Below are positions 41,787 to 48,987 of a DNA stretch of 64,000 nt, piece after piece. The first letter of the stretch is position 1; every line of letters starts with the position of its first letter. The translations under genes and the position numbers were made by a program. This DNA comes from Sinorhizobium terangae (GTDB lineage: Bacteria; Pseudomonadota; Alphaproteobacteria; Rhizobiales; Rhizobiaceae), in assembly GCF_029714365.1 (NCBI RefSeq), contig NZ_CP121659.1, forward strand, positions 930,001 through 994,000, given 5' to 3'. The notes under the pieces are model-generated. The model saw only the letters and a program-made list of their open reading frames with translations, did not search any database and was not told where the DNA came from.

Positions 41787-42254
41787 TCAAGGAACGATGA
41801 GCCCGCCGCGATAATCGAGCTCATAGGCCTCTTCGCCATCGACAAAGATGACCTCGCGTCCGGAAAAATGATCGGTCGCCCCGCGGCTGCTGTCGACGTA
41901 ACAACCGTAGGCGTGCTGATATCGCGTGCCGCCGAGGAAATGGCGCCTGTCGCGGTACATGGTCTGTAGTGCAGTTTTGATGACGGCGCCGGCTCGTTCC
42001 GCGTCGATTAGGTCCGGACGGATGATTCGACCGAAATAATTCATCGCCCAGCGCGGATTGCCTCCGTGCCAGACGGTTTCCTGGCCGGCAAAATCCGTTC
42101 CGCCGAAATAGCTGTCGAGATAGCTCCACGCACCGCGCTGGTGACCGATATCGCGTGAGCCGGGTCTGCAGGCAGGGAGCGCCGCTCCGCCGCCGACATA
42201 GGTTCTCGATTTCGCCTCGACGATGAAGTCGGTGAGTTCCTCGATGCTGAACAT
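41787..42254 (-). CDS. DUF5680 domain protein under LexA control
   Basis: This 155-residue protein consists of one DUF5680 domain (motifs AKSRTYVGGGA, ACRPGSRDIGHQRGAWSYLDSYFGG and MNYFGRIIRPDLID). The domain is found as a short stand-alone protein or fused to regulators, and its function is unknown; it may bind a small ligand. The ATG at 42254 has an excellent GGGAGGAC ribosome-binding site; a longer frame from 42395 would lie over the operator. A LexA box 55 bases upstream indicates induction by DNA damage. The gene is divergent from the small peptide gene ahead of dnaE. Confidence 0.85.
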   Translation of the reverse strand: MFSIEELTDFIVEAKSRTYVGGGAALPACRPGSRDIGHQRGAWSYLDSYFGGTDFAGQETVWHGGNPRWAMNYFGRIIRPDLIDAERAGAVIKTALQTMYRDRRHFLGGTRYQHAYGCYVDSSRGATDHFSGREVIFVDGEEAYELDYRGGLIVP

Positions 42255-42308: not shown

Positions 42309-42323
42309 GAACAAAAAGGGAAC
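42309..42323 (-). promoter_or_regulatory. LexA (SOS) box upstream of the DUF5680 gene
   Basis: GAAC-N7-GAAC on the plus strand (GTTC-N7-GTTC when read toward the DUF5680 gene) is the exact alphaproteobacterial LexA operator. It lies 55-69 bases ahead of the gene's start codon, with a TTTACAAG -10-like sequence just downstream. Confidence 0.8.
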
Positions 42324-42453
42324 AAACGGTGCCGGCCTCCGAACTGCCTGCGGTTTGGTTTGGATCTTGGGAGTTGCAATCTGGTGCCCAGCCACACGCG
42401 TTAACCATGAACTTTGAATTACGGGATCTTTTATTCAGGCTTGCTTGACTTCG

Positions 42454-42468
42454 GAACAAAAAAAGAAC
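42454..42468 (+). promoter_or_regulatory. LexA (SOS) box upstream of the small peptide gene and dnaE
   Basis: GAAC followed by seven A and GAAC is an exact match to the alphaproteobacterial LexA site. It begins five bases after a CTTGAC -35-like hexamer (42444-42449), placing the operator in the promoter spacer. It lies 34 bases upstream of the 28-codon gene and about 280 bases upstream of dnaE. Confidence 0.82.
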
Positions 42469-42501
42469 AAAAGAAAAACAATAGCGGAAAGGAGCCATAT
42501 T

Positions 42502-42588
42502 ATGACTGATTTCGTTCGTGATCTCGCCGCCTTCGCCTCCATGAGCCTGTTCATCGCCAGCATTTCAGTGATTGCGCTCGGATTCTGA
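42502..42588 (+). CDS. 28-residue single-span membrane peptide, SOS-controlled
   Basis: A short reading frame with a near-ideal ribosome-binding site (AAAGGAG at 42488-42494, seven bases before ATG) and a LexA operator 34 bases upstream. The peptide begins MTDFVRDLAAFASM and continues as an uninterrupted hydrophobic stretch of about 18 residues, ending in Phe. It should sit in the inner membrane with its charged N-terminus inside. Size, topology and SOS control resemble SidA of Caulobacter, a 29-residue membrane protein that blocks division after DNA damage, although I cannot claim sequence homology. Other possibilities are a TisB-like toxin or a leader peptide for dnaE. No terminator follows, so the message may continue into dnaE. 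Confidence 0.7.
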   Translation: MTDFVRDLAAFASMSLFIASISVIALGF

Positions 42589-42747: not shown

Positions 42748-45700
42748 ATGGCGAATGACGAAAGCCTTGGGCAGGGCGCCACTGTGAAGGATCCGCAGTT
42801 TGTACACTTGCGTGTGCATTCGGCCTTCTCGCTGCTCGAGGGCGCGCTGCCGCTGAAGAAGATCATCGGCAAGGCTGTGGCCGATGAACAGCCAGCCATT
42901 GGCATTGCCGACACCAACAATCTGTTTGCTGCGCTCGAATTCTCCCAAAAGGCGGCGGATGACGGCTTGCAGCCGATCATTGGCTGCCAATTGTCGATCG
43001 ACATGGAGGACGAGGCCGAAGTGGAGCGGCGCGGCCATCATCATCAGCTTGCAAAGCTGCCGTCGCTCGTGCTGATCGCCGCAACGGACGCTGGCTATGT
43101 CCGGCTCGTCGACCTCGTCAGCCGCGCCTATCTCGACGGCGAGGGCAGCCAGGCGGCGCGAATAACCCGGTCATGGCTGACCGAAGGCGGGACCGATGGA
43201 CTGATCGCGCTGACGGGGGCGGCGAGCGGACCGATCGACATGGCATTGAAGGCGGGTTCGCCGGTTCTGGCCGAAAATCGGCTGAAAGCGTTGATCGAGC
43301 TCTTCGGCGACCGGCTCTACCTGGAACTGCAGCGGCATGGCAATTATGACCGGCGGCACGAGAGCCGCATGGTCGATCTCGCCTATCGCTTTGATGTGCC
43401 CCTGGTGGCGACCAACGAGGCGTTCTTTCCCGCGCCGGCCGACTATGATGCGCACGACGCTTTGATGGCAGTCGCGCACAACGCGATGGTTTCGGATGAC
43501 AGCCGTTTCCGGCTGACGCCGGACCACTATCTGAAAAGCCGCAAGGAAATGGCGGCGCTCTTCGCCGATCTGCCGGAGGCATTGGAGAACACGATCGAAA
43601 TCGCCCGGCGCTGCTCTTTCATGCTGAAGACGCGGGGGCCGATCCTGCCGCGCTTCACCGGCGCTTCGGATGACCCGGAGGAAGCCGAGCGTGCGGAGGC
43701 TGCGGAGCTTCGTCGGCAGGCGGAGGAGGGGCTGGAGCGTCGCCTGGCGAAGCTCGGCATGGCACCCGGCTACAAGGAAGAGGATTATCGCGAGCGGCTG
43801 GCCTTCGAACTCGGCGTCATCGAACGCATGAAGTTCCCGGGCTACTTCCTGATCGTTTCGGATTTCATCAAGTGGGCCAAGCAGCACGACATTCCCGTCG
43901 GCCCGGGCCGCGGCTCGGGTGCGGGATCGCTCGTTGCCTATGCGCTGACGATCACCGACGTCGATCCGATGCGGTTCTCGCTGCTGTTCGAGCGCTTCCT
44001 CAATCCCGAACGCGTGTCGATGCCCGACTTCGATATCGACTTCTGCCAGGACCGGCGTGAAGAGGTGATCCGCTACGTTCAGGGCAAATACGGCCGCGAG
44101 CAGGTGGCGCAGATCATCACCTTCGGATCACTTCAGGCGCGTGCGGCGTTGCGCGATGTTGGCCGCGTGCTCGAAATGCCCTATGGCCAAGTCGACAAGA
44201 TCTGCAAGCTGGTGCCGAATAACCCCGCCAATCCGACGCCGCTTTCGAAAGCGATCGAGGAGGAGCCGCGGCTTCAGGAGGAGGCGGAAAAGGAGCCGGT
44301 CGTGGCGCGCCTCCTCGATATCGCCCAGAAGATCGAGGGCCTCTACCGCCATGCTTCGACGCACGCCGCCGGCATCGTCATCGGTGATCGGCCGCTTTCG
44401 AAGCTGGTGCCGATGTACCGGGATCCGCGTTCGGACATGCCGGTCACCCAGTTCAACATGAAATGGGTGGAGCAGGCCGGCCTCGTCAAATTCGACTTCC
44501 TCGGCTTGAAAACGCTGACGGTGCTGAAGACCGCGGTCGATTTCGTCGCCAAGCGCGGCATTCATATCGATCTTGCGAGCATTCCGCTTGACGACGTGAA
44601 GACCTACGAGATGCTTTCCCGCGGCGAGACGGTCGGCGTGTTCCAGGTGGAAAGCGCCGGCATGCGCAAGGCGCTGATCGGCATGCGGCCGGACTGCATC
44701 GAGGACATCATCGCCCTCGTTGCGCTCTACCGTCCGGGCCCGATGGAGAACATTCCGGTCTACAACGCCCGCAAGCACGGCGAGGAAGAGATCGAGTCGA
44801 TCCATCCGAAGATCGACTACCTGCTGAAGGAGACGCAGGGCGTTATCGTCTATCAGGAGCAGGTGATGCAGATCGCCCAGGTGCTCTCTGGCTACTCGCT
44901 CGGCGAGGCCGATCTGTTGCGCCGCGCCATGGGCAAGAAGATCAAGGAGGAGATGGACAAGCAACGCGCCCGCTTCGTCGAAGGCGCCGTCAAGAACGAG
45001 GTATCGAAACCGCAGGCCGACCTGATCTTCGACCTGCTTGCGAAGTTCGCCAACTACGGCTTCAACAAGTCGCATGCGGCCGCCTACGCAATCGTCTCCT
45101 ACCAGACCGCCTATATGAAGGCGCATTATCCGGTTGAGTTCCTCGCCGCGTCGATGACGCTCGATATGTCCAATACGGAAAAGATCAACGATTTCCGTCA
45201 GGACGCCATGCGCCTCGGTATCGAAGTGATCGCGCCGTCGGTGCAGACCTCCTTCCGCCATTTCGAGACCGGCGACAACCGCATCTATTATTCGCTAGCC
45301 GCGATCAAGGGCGTCGGCGAGTCGGCCGTCGAGCACATCGTGGCTGTCCGCGGCGATCGCCCCTTCGCGAGCCTCGAGGACTTCTGCCTCCGGATCGATC
45401 CGAAGCTCCTGAACAGGCGCGTTTTCGAAAGCCTGATCGCCGCAGGCGCATTCGATTGCTTCGGCTACGACCGGGCCGAACTCATTGGCGGTCTTGATCG
45501 GGTCCTGGGCTTTGCCCAGCGCGCGCAGGAAAACAAGGTGAGCGGCCAGAGCGATATGTTCGGCGCCGGTGCCGCAACCGGTCCGGAGAGAATCGCGCTG
45601 CCGGCCTACACGCCTTGGCTCGCCTCCGAGAAGCTGCACCGGGAGTTCCAGGTGCTCGGCTTCTATCTTTCCGCCCATCCGCTCGATACCTACAACAAGC

Positions 45701-46242
45701 TGCTGGCGAAGATGCGCGTGCAGACTTTCGCCGATTTCGCTGCAGCCGTGAAGCAGGGGGCGACCGCCGGCCGCCTGGCCGGAACGGTGACGTCCAAGCA
45801 GGAGCGCAAGACGCGCACCGGCAACAAGATGGGGATCGTCGCCTTTTCGGACGCATCGGGCCAGTTCGAGGCCGTTCTCTTCTCGGAAATGCTGAACCAG
45901 TATCGCGATCTTCTCGAGCCGGGCAAATCGCTGGTCATGACGGTCGCCGCCGAGGAGCGTCCGGAAGGAATCGGCCTTCGCATTCAGACTCTGCGGTCTC
46001 TCGAAGAGGAGTCGCTGCAGATGCAGAAGGCGCTGAGGGTGTTTGTTCGGGACGCCGGTCCGCTGCGCTCCATCGCCTCCCATCTCAACACGAAGGGCGA
46101 TGGTCTCGTCTCATTCGTGGTCATCAAGGAAAACGGCCAGCGGGAGATCGAGGTCGAGCTCAACGAGAAATACCGGATTTCGCCGGAGATCGCCGCGGCG
46201 CTTCGCTCGGCCCCCGGTGTCGTCGATGTCGAGCTCGTCTAG
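42748..46242 (+). CDS. dnaE: DNA polymerase III subunit alpha
   Basis: DnaE is the replicative polymerase. The 1164-residue protein has the N-terminal PHP domain (HLRVHSAFSLLEG, residues 20-32), the catalytic palm with PDFDIDF (Asp427, Asp429, Asp431), a helix-hairpin-helix region, an OB fold, and a C-terminal tau-binding part. The length and PHP domain identify the replicative DnaE1 rather than the SOS-mutagenesis DnaE2. The ATG at 42748 has GGAG upstream and gives a conserved start; an in-frame start at 42619 is not conserved. The upstream SOS box raises the possibility of damage-dependent readthrough. Confidence 0.97.
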   Translation: MANDESLGQGATVKDPQFVHLRVHSAFSLLEGALPLKKIIGKAVADEQPAIGIADTNNLFAALEFSQKAADDGLQPIIGCQLSIDMEDEAEVERRGHHHQLAKLPSLVLIAATDAGYVRLVDLVSRAYLDGEGSQAARITRSWLTEGGTDGLIALTGAASGPIDMALKAGSPVLAENRLKALIELFGDRLYLELQRHGNYDRRHESRMVDLAYRFDVPLVATNEAFFPAPADYDAHDALMAVAHNAMVSDDSRFRLTPDHYLKSRKEMAALFADLPEALENTIEIARRCSFMLKTRGPILPRFTGASDDPEEAERAEAAELRRQAEEGLERRLAKLGMAPGYKEEDYRERLAFELGVIERMKFPGYFLIVSDFIKWAKQHDIPVGPGRGSGAGSLVAYALTITDVDPMRFSLLFERFLNPERVSMPDFDIDFCQDRREEVIRYVQGKYGREQVAQIITFGSLQARAALRDVGRVLEMPYGQVDKICKLVPNNPANPTPLSKAIEEEPRLQEEAEKEPVVARLLDIAQKIEGLYRHASTHAAGIVIGDRPLSKLVPMYRDPRSDMPVTQFNMKWVEQAGLVKFDFLGLKTLTVLKTAVDFVAKRGIHIDLASIPLDDVKTYEMLSRGETVGVFQVESAGMRKALIGMRPDCIEDIIALVALYRPGPMENIPVYNARKHGEEEIESIHPKIDYLLKETQGVIVYQEQVMQIAQVLSGYSLGEADLLRRAMGKKIKEEMDKQRARFVEGAVKNEVSKPQADLIFDLLAKFANYGFNKSHAAAYAIVSYQTAYMKAHYPVEFLAASMTLDMSNTEKINDFRQDAMRLGIEVIAPSVQTSFRHFETGDNRIYYSLAAIKGVGESAVEHIVAVRGDRPFASLEDFCLRIDPKLLNRRVFESLIAAGAFDCFGYDRAELIGGLDRVLGFAQRAQENKVSGQSDMFGAGAATGPERIALPAYTPWLASEKLHREFQVLGFYLSAHPLDTYNKLLAKMRVQTFADFAAAVKQGATAGRLAGTVTSKQERKTRTGNKMGIVAFSDASGQFEAVLFSEMLNQYRDLLEPGKSLVMTVAAEERPEGIGLRIQTLRSLEEESLQMQKALRVFVRDAGPLRSIASHLNTKGDGLVSFVVIKENGQREIEVELNEKYRISPEIAAALRSAPGVVDVELV

Positions 46243-47674: not shown

Positions 47675-48967
47675 CTACTGATCGCGACGCCGGGGGCCGA
47701 AGGTATAGCCGGTCTCGACGGTTGTCTTGCCGAACTTCTCGCGCAGCTTGTTGATGGCATCCTCGGCAGCCGCGCGCCGAGTCGCTGCCGGATCCACCAG
47801 GTCCGGTGGATCGGCAAGGCTAGGATCGGACAGGTCGCTGACGCCGATGCCGATCAGCCTGTATCGCGTACCGTCGACTTCCTTTTCCAGAAGCTGGAGG
47901 CCGGTGCGGAAGATACGATCCGCCAGACGTGTCGGGCTGTCGAGCCGCCTGTTGCGTGTGCGAAGTTTGAAGTCGGCGGTCTTGAGCTTGAGGACGACGG
48001 TTTGTCCGGCGAGCTCCGCCTTGCGTAGGCGCAGCGCCACCTGTTCGCTGAGCCGCCTGAGGTGCGGGACCAGTTCCTCCGGGCGCGACAGATCGTCGTT
48101 GAACGTGGTTTCCGACGACACGCTCTTGGCCTCTCCGTCCGTTTCCACGATCCGCTCGTCCCGGCCGCGCGAGAGGCGGTAGAGCCTTTGGCCCATCGTG
48201 CCGTAGCGGCGCATCAGGTCAGCTTCCTCCATCATCCGCAATTGGCCGATGGTGCGGATGCCGTCCCTTTCGAGCGTCGCGGCAAAGGCCTTGCCGACAC
48301 CCCAGATCAGTGTGACCGGACGCTCCTTGAGGAAGTCCACCGCCTCGGCCTGACCGATGACAGAGAAGCCACGTGGCTTCTGCAGGTCGGACGCAACCTT
48401 GGCGAGGAACTTGCAGTAGGACAGGCCGACGGAGACGGTGATGCCGATTTCCTGCTCCACGCGCTTCGCGAACCGGGCAAGTGTCCGGGCCGGGGGATCG
48501 TGATGGAGACGTTCGGTGCCACTGAGATCGAGGAAGGCTTCGTCGATCGACAGCGGCTGTACAAGCGGTGTCAGCTCCAGCATCAGCGACCGTACTTCGC
48601 GTCCGACGCGCGAATATTTCTCCATGTCCGGCTTGATCACAACCGCCTGCGGACAGGCTTCCAGCGCCTTGAACATCGGCATGGCGGAGCGAACACCGTG
48701 AATGCGGGCGATGTAGCAGGCGGTCGAAACGACGCCGCGTTTGCCGCCGCCAATGATCACCGGCTTGTCAGCAAGCTCCGGATCGTCGCGCTTCTCGATC
48801 GACGCGTAGAAGGCATCGCAGTCGATATGCGCGAGCGTCAGCTTGTAGAGTTCGGAGTGGCGAAGAAGCCGCGGGCTGCCGCAAGACAGACACCGTCGTG
48901 GTTCGGTGGCCTGCGCCCTGAGGCAGTCTCGGCAGAAGCCAGGAATCGATGCGGCGCTGTCGGGCAT
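47675..48967 (-). CDS. dinB: DNA polymerase IV with N-terminal Cys4 motif
   Basis: This 430-residue Y-family translesion polymerase has the catalytic carboxylates Asp49 ([12 protein letters not shown]) and Asp142-Glu143 ([12 protein letters not shown]), the thumb HhH motifs ([18 protein letters not shown]), and a little-finger domain. Unlike textbook DinB it begins with about 40 extra residues containing Cys12, Cys15, Cys26 and Cys29 (FCRDC, then CLSCG), a probable zinc ribbon. No start codon lies between that motif and the polymerase core, so the extension is real. A LexA box ends only six bases before the ATG. The final residues do not show an obvious QL-x-LF clamp-binding motif. Confidence 0.93.
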
Positions 48968-48972
48968 ATCCG

Positions 48973-48987
48973 GAACAAATGTTGAAC
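48973..48987 (-). promoter_or_regulatory. LexA (SOS) box immediately upstream of dinB
   Basis: GAAC-AAATGTT-GAAC (GTTC-N7-GTTC in the dinB direction) exactly matches the alphaproteobacterial LexA operator. It ends six bases before the dinB ATG, so bound LexA would block the very start of the transcript or its promoter. The divergent acetyltransferase-like gene starts 56 bases away on the other side and could share the control. Confidence 0.8.

Follow-up and report, generated by a model that had tools for sequence, protein, structure and literature searches.

A conserved gene for a predicted 28-residue membrane peptide behind a LexA box upstream of dnaE in Rhizobiaceae, and its probable kinship with the division inhibitor SidA of Caulobacter

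The leader of dnaE1 and its conservation in Rhizobiaceae

The region described here is the leader of dnaE1 in the window, that is, the whole stretch of 64,000 nucleotides of Sinorhizobium terangae DNA that was analysed, and its features are collected in Table 1 together with two neighbouring genes. The exact GAAC-N7-GAAC pattern, the AAAGGAG motif and the 28-codon frame ahead of dnaE were all found where the original prediction had placed them, the exact box sitting 48 nt ahead of the ATG of the peptide, and the single hydrophobic span that it had read in the frame was recovered as a 19-residue Kyte-Doolittle mean of 2.23. The proposal that the box lies within a CTTGAC promoter stands in part. 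The CTTGAC is present, and among the 92 family loci with an exact box 83 have it beginning exactly 9 nt past the first letter of a TTGAC, but no consensus -35/-10 promoter was called between 42250 and 42800, which leaves this part of the proposal half sustained. The same scan called no terminator-like site on the + strand in the interval between the peptide and dnaE. In many loci of the family a second, overlapping LexA box follows 11 nt later; the copy in the window is without the last half-site.

Table 1. Positions of the elements of the dnaE1 leader and of neighbouring LexA-boxed genes in the window
Feature	Position	Strand	Basis
CTTGAC, presumed -35 element	42444-42449	+	read from sequence
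LexA box GAACAAAAAAAGAAC, GAAC-N7-GAAC	42454-42468	+	exact pattern; predicted operator
Ribosome-binding site AAAGGAG	42488-42494	+	read from sequence
SidA-like 28-residue single-span membrane peptide (predicted) MTDFVRDLAAFASMSLFIASISVIALGF	42502..42588 (ATG 42502, TGA 42586-42588)	+	
dnaE (DnaE1, DNA polymerase III alpha)	42748..46242 (ATG 42748)	+	Pfam polymerase III alpha domains
DUF5680 gene, divergent from the peptide	41787-42254	-	
LexA box of the DUF5680 gene	42309-42323		
dinB (DNA polymerase IV)	47675-48967	-	
GAACAAA-type LexA box directly upstream of dinB	48973-48987		

Conservation was followed through the family, taken as Rhizobiaceae in the GTDB sense since the closest DNA in the plasmid collection is that of Sinorhizobium and Shinella (81-84% identity). 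The peptide was matched in 30 of the 31 genomes of the same genus besides the window's own. When 60 genomes, the window's own being one, were searched, the E≤10 threshold was passed in 37, the weakest of these matches resembling chance; a profile search of 394 family genomes (own included) passed E≤1 in 282, and here too the list trails off into many weak matches. Loci were then compared in 112 genomes (119 loci, 7 repeat loci being dropped ahead of counting); this sample joins the loci returned by the searches to 60 picked by hand for genus diversity and is a collection of hits, not a random one. In 104 of these 112 genomes the peptide is followed by dnaE in the same orientation at a distance of no more than 1.6 kb, and the other eight include doubtful hits. 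With the starts as called, the peptide of the 104 dnaE-linked loci has 28 residues in 99, 27 in three, and 32 and 33 in one each. Of the 104, 92 have the exact GAAC-N7-GAAC box between -62 and -30, against 0 or 1 locus for each of the control spacers 4, 5, 6, 8, 9 and 10 and likewise 0 or 1 for the reversed half-site. All of the remaining 12 carry, between -70 and -15, a box that departs from the pattern at no more than one base, and a Shine-Dalgarno-like motif occurs in the last 20 nt ahead of the frame in 104 of 104.

The amino acids of the frame have been kept. Over the 30 genus loci pN/pS was 0.117, against 2.8 and 12.0 in the other two frames, and the variable sites at codon positions 1, 2 and 3 numbered 11, 2 and 22. 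Over 99 family loci pN/pS was 0.376, a value obtained with pS near saturation. The frame of the window is a conserved gene under purifying selection, and the original prediction, which had called for the frame and its box to be sought upstream of dnaE in relatives and for amino acids to be kept over third positions, was borne out on each of these points.

In Sinorhizobium meliloti the corresponding sequence, MADFVRDLAAFASMSLFIVSISVIALGL, lies upstream of dnaE behind the same boxes in the record CP090106.1 (L218:2707), and no gene is listed there in the gene table of that collection, which describes itself as incomplete. A frame this short readily escapes gene finders. In the protein database, 10 proteins match the extended frame of the window, and the three that are named are each called 'hypothetical protein'. 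A paper on the small proteome of S. meliloti, in the portion of its text available, places sORF25, a small open reading frame detected by Ribo-seq, in the 5′-UTR of dnaE1 (PMC10117765). The same portion describes this translated frame without a sequence, a LexA box or a link to SidA (PMC10117765). We infer that sORF25 is the SidA-like peptide studied here. The main text of a paper on transcription start sites (PMC3616915) contains no occurrence of dnaE or LexA.

These observations bear on whether the frame could instead be a uORF, a leader peptide that controls dnaE1 through its own translation. The peptide does precede dnaE1 in the same orientation, the scan having called no terminator-like site in the gap, and the position of sORF25 in the dnaE1 5′-UTR goes with the remark, in the available text on the small proteome, that some 5′-UTR sORFs could act as uORFs (PMC10117765). 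Such a role is nevertheless very unlikely. The selection on the amino acids seen in the genus loci argues against it, as does the distance between the start of the peptide and the matched dnaE codons, which varies from 210 to 789 nt among the family loci and reaches 1520 nt in one. Further, the peptide gene has a predicted LexA-box promoter of its own, and the hydrophobic span together with the pattern RD..AF.S...F indicates a working protein. The preferred reading, a SidA-like peptide, would give meaning to a translated and unexplained sORF of S. meliloti.

SidA loci of Caulobacteraceae and the comparison of the two families

The original prediction had left two options for the peptide, a rhizobial counterpart of SidA or a new type. 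CCNA_02004 and CC1926 are genes that we take to be neighbours in Caulobacter crescentus. According to the available portions of the papers concerned, the first is sidA (PMC10769358), the second is dnaE (PMC1839093), and SidA is a 29-residue inner-membrane SOS protein that acts through FtsW/FtsI/FtsN (PMC4211646). For C. crescentus itself, the place of sidA was deduced from the locus tags and from relatives, and the adjacency was then tested on relatives. A Caulobacter PleD query, its letters taken from a PDB alignment, led to 80 named loci, and the search for dnaE in 30 of the named genomes recovered its locus in 29. A C. vibrioides MAG matched neither dnaE nor the peptide, and other named Caulobacter genomes were used. 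A PF07733 search, which placed C. vibrioides among the control genomes, yielded no locus from it.

A peptide is present upstream of dnaE in Caulobacter, Phenylobacterium and Brevundimonas. The Caulobacter peptide, used as a query, matched 12 of 14 genomes of Caulobacteraceae, the misses being the C. vibrioides MAG and Brevundimonas Root1279; the latter has a 31-residue peptide behind two boxes upstream of dnaE. All 12 loci that were fetched (a thirteenth, a weak second hit, was dropped) encode 29 residues and have dnaE on the same strand at 126-229 nt from the start of the peptide (tblastn), and 10 of them carry an exact LexA box, the other two having one-mismatch boxes only. The NCBIfam model of the cell division inhibitor SidA, NF033228, has a curated cut-off of 35 bits. 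It identifies the three Caulobacter copies tested (72.5, 73.7 and 74 bits) and a Phenylobacterium copy (67.1 bits); a B. variabilis copy, at 31.8 bits, falls under the cut-off, and the Root1279 peptide gave no match at E≤0.01.

For the comparison of the two families, an alignment of 12 Caulobacteraceae peptides (A2) was set against one of 25 rhizobial peptides (A3). With hhalign the two align ungapped over columns 1-23, with a P value of 3.9e-5 and a probability of 70.6%, and register 0 is the best of 13, the 12 others (-6 to +6) scoring far lower. When columns 2-28 of A2 were permuted, the observed score was reached in 0 of 20000 trials, and it was reached in 181 of 20000 when columns 8-28 alone were permuted, which is weaker support. 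Columns 7, 13 and 17 show little or no variation in either alignment, and R6 is invariant in one family and the majority residue in the other. At the family level the peptides have M1, R6, D/E7, A/S10, S13 and F17 in common, and the rhizobial peptide resembles Caulobacter SidA in its length (28 against 29 residues), its one hydrophobic span, its upstream LexA box and its place directly upstream of dnaE. Unlike SidA, it is without the FVWM core, the rhizobial branch having neither the W19 nor the M20 of the Caulobacteraceae peptides, and the curated model does not match it.

Among 3527 small ORFs of the rhizobial loci, the A2 profile ranked dnaE-upstream peptides first, without a break as far as rank 45; of the top 70 entries 67 were such peptides and three were unrelated ORFs. 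Its best E value was 2.2e-4, nine hits had E<0.01, and of the 77 hits at E<1 four were unrelated, the other 73 being dnaE-upstream peptides. In the reverse direction, A3 was run against 2661 ORFs of other alphaproteobacterial loci and placed dnaE-upstream peptides at ranks 1-18, with a best E of 8.1e-6; the Caulobacter and Phenylobacterium members came at E values of 0.3-0.9 only.

Hydrophobic helices readily resemble one another, and some groups share little except place and hydrophobicity (L132, at rank 44, and L148, at rank 16), as would be expected if several groups had independently acquired unrelated short hydrophobic peptides between a LexA box and dnaE. We regard such convergence as highly improbable. 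Permutations restricted to within the hydrophobic and polar classes reached the observed score in only 3 of 20000 trials, and neither the near-invariance of columns 7, 13 and 17 in both families, with R6 invariant or in the majority, nor the unbroken run of dnaE-upstream peptides at the head of the SidA-profile ranking is what convergence would lead one to expect. Judged from these comparisons of sequence, the rhizobial peptides are homologous, as a family, to the curated SidA of Caulobacter.

Taken singly, the peptide of the window reaches only E 0.18 (9.3 bits) against the SidA profile, which is not significant, and the link to SidA is therefore drawn at the level of the family. NF033228 matched neither the window peptide, which does not attain the more than 35 bits that membership asks for, nor any of the 25 rhizobial members (0 of 25), and it found nothing at E≤1 in the window's genome. 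Over 385 genomes of the class the model passes its cut-off in one and gives weak matches at E≤1 in 135; among 14 control genomes it matches seven and passes the cut-off in one. Neither the window peptide nor six peptides of the class had a Pfam match, and NCBIfam gave no SidA match for the rhizobial peptides, returning two stray weak families only. Because the rhizobial peptides miss the NF033228 cut-off, they are assigned to a SidA type within a broad dnaE-linked family and not to NF033228 itself. The features of that broad family are found in them, namely a short peptide with a predicted single span, a predicted LexA operator, dnaE downstream and homology at the family level. Since SidA occupies the same address ahead of dnaE, behind an exact or one-mismatch LexA box, and the ungapped alignment has statistics to go with it, the counterpart is the option favoured over a new type. 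The place ahead of dnaE, which had seemed striking in the first description of the locus, is the shared address of SidA-type peptides in rhizobia and Caulobacteraceae.

Distribution across Alphaproteobacteria

The breadth of the arrangement was examined in 117 further dnaE loci, composed of 28 of the 30 returned by a dnaE search (the window's own and one of the same family being dropped), 60 picked by hand and 29 from the named genomes; some genera occur repeatedly in this set. The box GAAC-N7-GAAC lies within 500 nt upstream of dnaE in 30 of the 117, other spacers giving 0-3, the reversed half-site 0-2 and GTTC-N7-GTTC 7, and most of the loci are without an exact box. A hydrophobic ORF, 26-50 residues long and starting 28-66 nt past the box, is present in 27 of the 30 loci that have the box. 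At control positions such ORFs were met in 79 of 4350 cases (1.8%) for points drawn at random in loci lacking the box and in 69 of 1500 (4.6%) on the other strand. The three misses are a locus with an ORF at 79 nt (L166), that of B. variabilis, whose 29-residue peptide is less hydrophobic (L320), and that of Pleomorphomonas (L327). An exact box no more than 800 nt away is present at 12 of the 29 named loci, and in several groups the place holds no gene of this kind.

Near an exact or one-mismatch box upstream of dnaE, no convincing gene was found in Azospirillum, Hyphomicrobium, Henriciella and Hyphomonas (two loci each) or in Rubritepida, Chelativorans, Tianweitania, Rhodoblastus, Methylobacterium W2 and a MAG of Emcibacteraceae. 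Chelativorans and Tianweitania, both among the named loci, are presumably close to Rhizobiaceae. In Bosea a candidate gene lies behind a one-mismatch box upstream of dnaE. The dnaE-linked peptide family is widespread but patchy, and an early origin in Alphaproteobacteria with later losses is plausible. A more tentative proposal, which we rate as possible though somewhat short of probable, is that SidA is the Caulobacteraceae branch of an early alphaproteobacterial division checkpoint tied to dnaE, present in rhizobia too, in which one LexA promoter would brake septation and raise the polymerase by read-through. If this is true, damaged cells would stop dividing while they replicate their DNA again. 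SidA-type peptides would in any case reach well beyond the curated NF033228 model, and the rule for finding them in other Alphaproteobacteria would be to look between the LexA box and dnaE.

Proposed action and the LexA sites of the genome

The reading that we hold to be very probable is that the peptides are the rhizobial branch of the SidA family, an SOS-controlled membrane peptide that inhibits division. LexA bound to the GAAC-N7-GAAC box just past CTTGAC would keep the peptide gene off, and DNA damage, through RecA-driven cleavage of LexA, would release it. The 28-residue peptide would then insert in the inner membrane and hold the FtsW/FtsI/FtsN septal synthase inactive, as SidA does in Caulobacter, and division would wait until repair is complete. 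Co-induction of dnaE1 by read-through from the peptide promoter is possible. By analogy with Caulobacter, the SOS induction, the division block and FtsW as the target would extend to the rhizobial peptide. In Caulobacter the block is reported to be suppressed by ftsW or ftsI alleles (PMC4211646). A low-confidence AlphaFold 3 model reported in the available portion of PMC13396833 places SidA at TM7 of FtsW.

YneA, SosA, ChiZ and DidA are damage-induced division inhibitors, described in the available portions of two sources as small proteins of the membrane whose point of attack is the septal synthase (PMC13396833, PMC4211646). These descriptions set YneA, which has a LysM domain, and DidA, which has 71 residues, apart from a peptide of 28 residues (PMC13396833, PMC4211646). 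In the open-licence literature searched, which leaves most subscription papers outside, no link between the rhizobial peptide and SidA was found in print, and no effector that halts division in Rhizobiales after DNA damage was named. Rhizobiales grow from one pole, and the peptide is a candidate for an effector linking damage to division, with an exact address.

TisB of Escherichia coli, to which the peptide had been compared at the outset, is a short, hydrophobic, SOS-controlled peptide that depolarises the membrane and is paired with an antisense RNA antitoxin. DinQ, also of E. coli, is in the partial account available likewise short, hydrophobic and SOS-controlled, acts on the membrane and has an antisense RNA. 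The rhizobial peptide is like both in shortness, hydrophobicity and, by prediction, SOS control, but their descriptions as membrane-acting peptides with antisense RNAs set them apart from it. Small size, a single hydrophobic span and SOS control are all that speaks for the comparison with TisB. An SOS membrane peptide with another action, be it membrane damage of the TisB or DinQ type or action on the apparatus of polar growth in Rhizobiales, would also be small, have one hydrophobic span and lie behind a LexA box; such an action is unlikely in view of the homology and the common address with SidA, which favour inhibition of division in the manner of SidA.

Bare GAAC-N7-GAAC sites are too common to carry meaning alone, as the window contains five where 2.1 are expected (a count of five was reached in 10 of 100 shuffles) and the whole genome 209, against 188 for the reversed control. 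The stricter form GAACAAA-N4-GAAC occurs at eight genomic sites, its control at none. Six of them adjoin a PA0069-family radical SAM gene, the DUF5680 gene, the SidA-like peptide, dinB, ssb/uvrA, and an imuA-like gene with a second dinB; no recognised SOS gene lies alongside the other two (L036, L037). The authenticity of the predicted LexA box is backed by this excess of eight against none and by the position of several of the sites next to ssb/uvrA, dinB and the imuA-like gene. In the two regions of the genome that were examined for them (L346, L347), neither lexA nor recA was recognised.

Some other genes at these sites deserve mention in their own right. A divergent relative of the DUF5680 gene occurs in 33 of the 112 family loci, with an exact box 62-71 nt ahead of its start in 30 of the 33, and in the remaining three the alignments may stop short of the true start; by its boxes, the gene is a candidate new SOS gene whose function is unassigned. 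The PA0069-family radical SAM gene stands behind a GAACAAA-type box (L031, G000:C1:487245), which suggests that it belongs to the SOS regulon. Two separate imuA-like genes (L038, L348) are each preceded by GAAC-N7-GAAC, and their ImuA matches, 45 bits beside the GAACAAA site and 63 at another locus, lie below the NCBIfam cut-off of 150. The same genome contains three matches that resemble polymerase III alpha.
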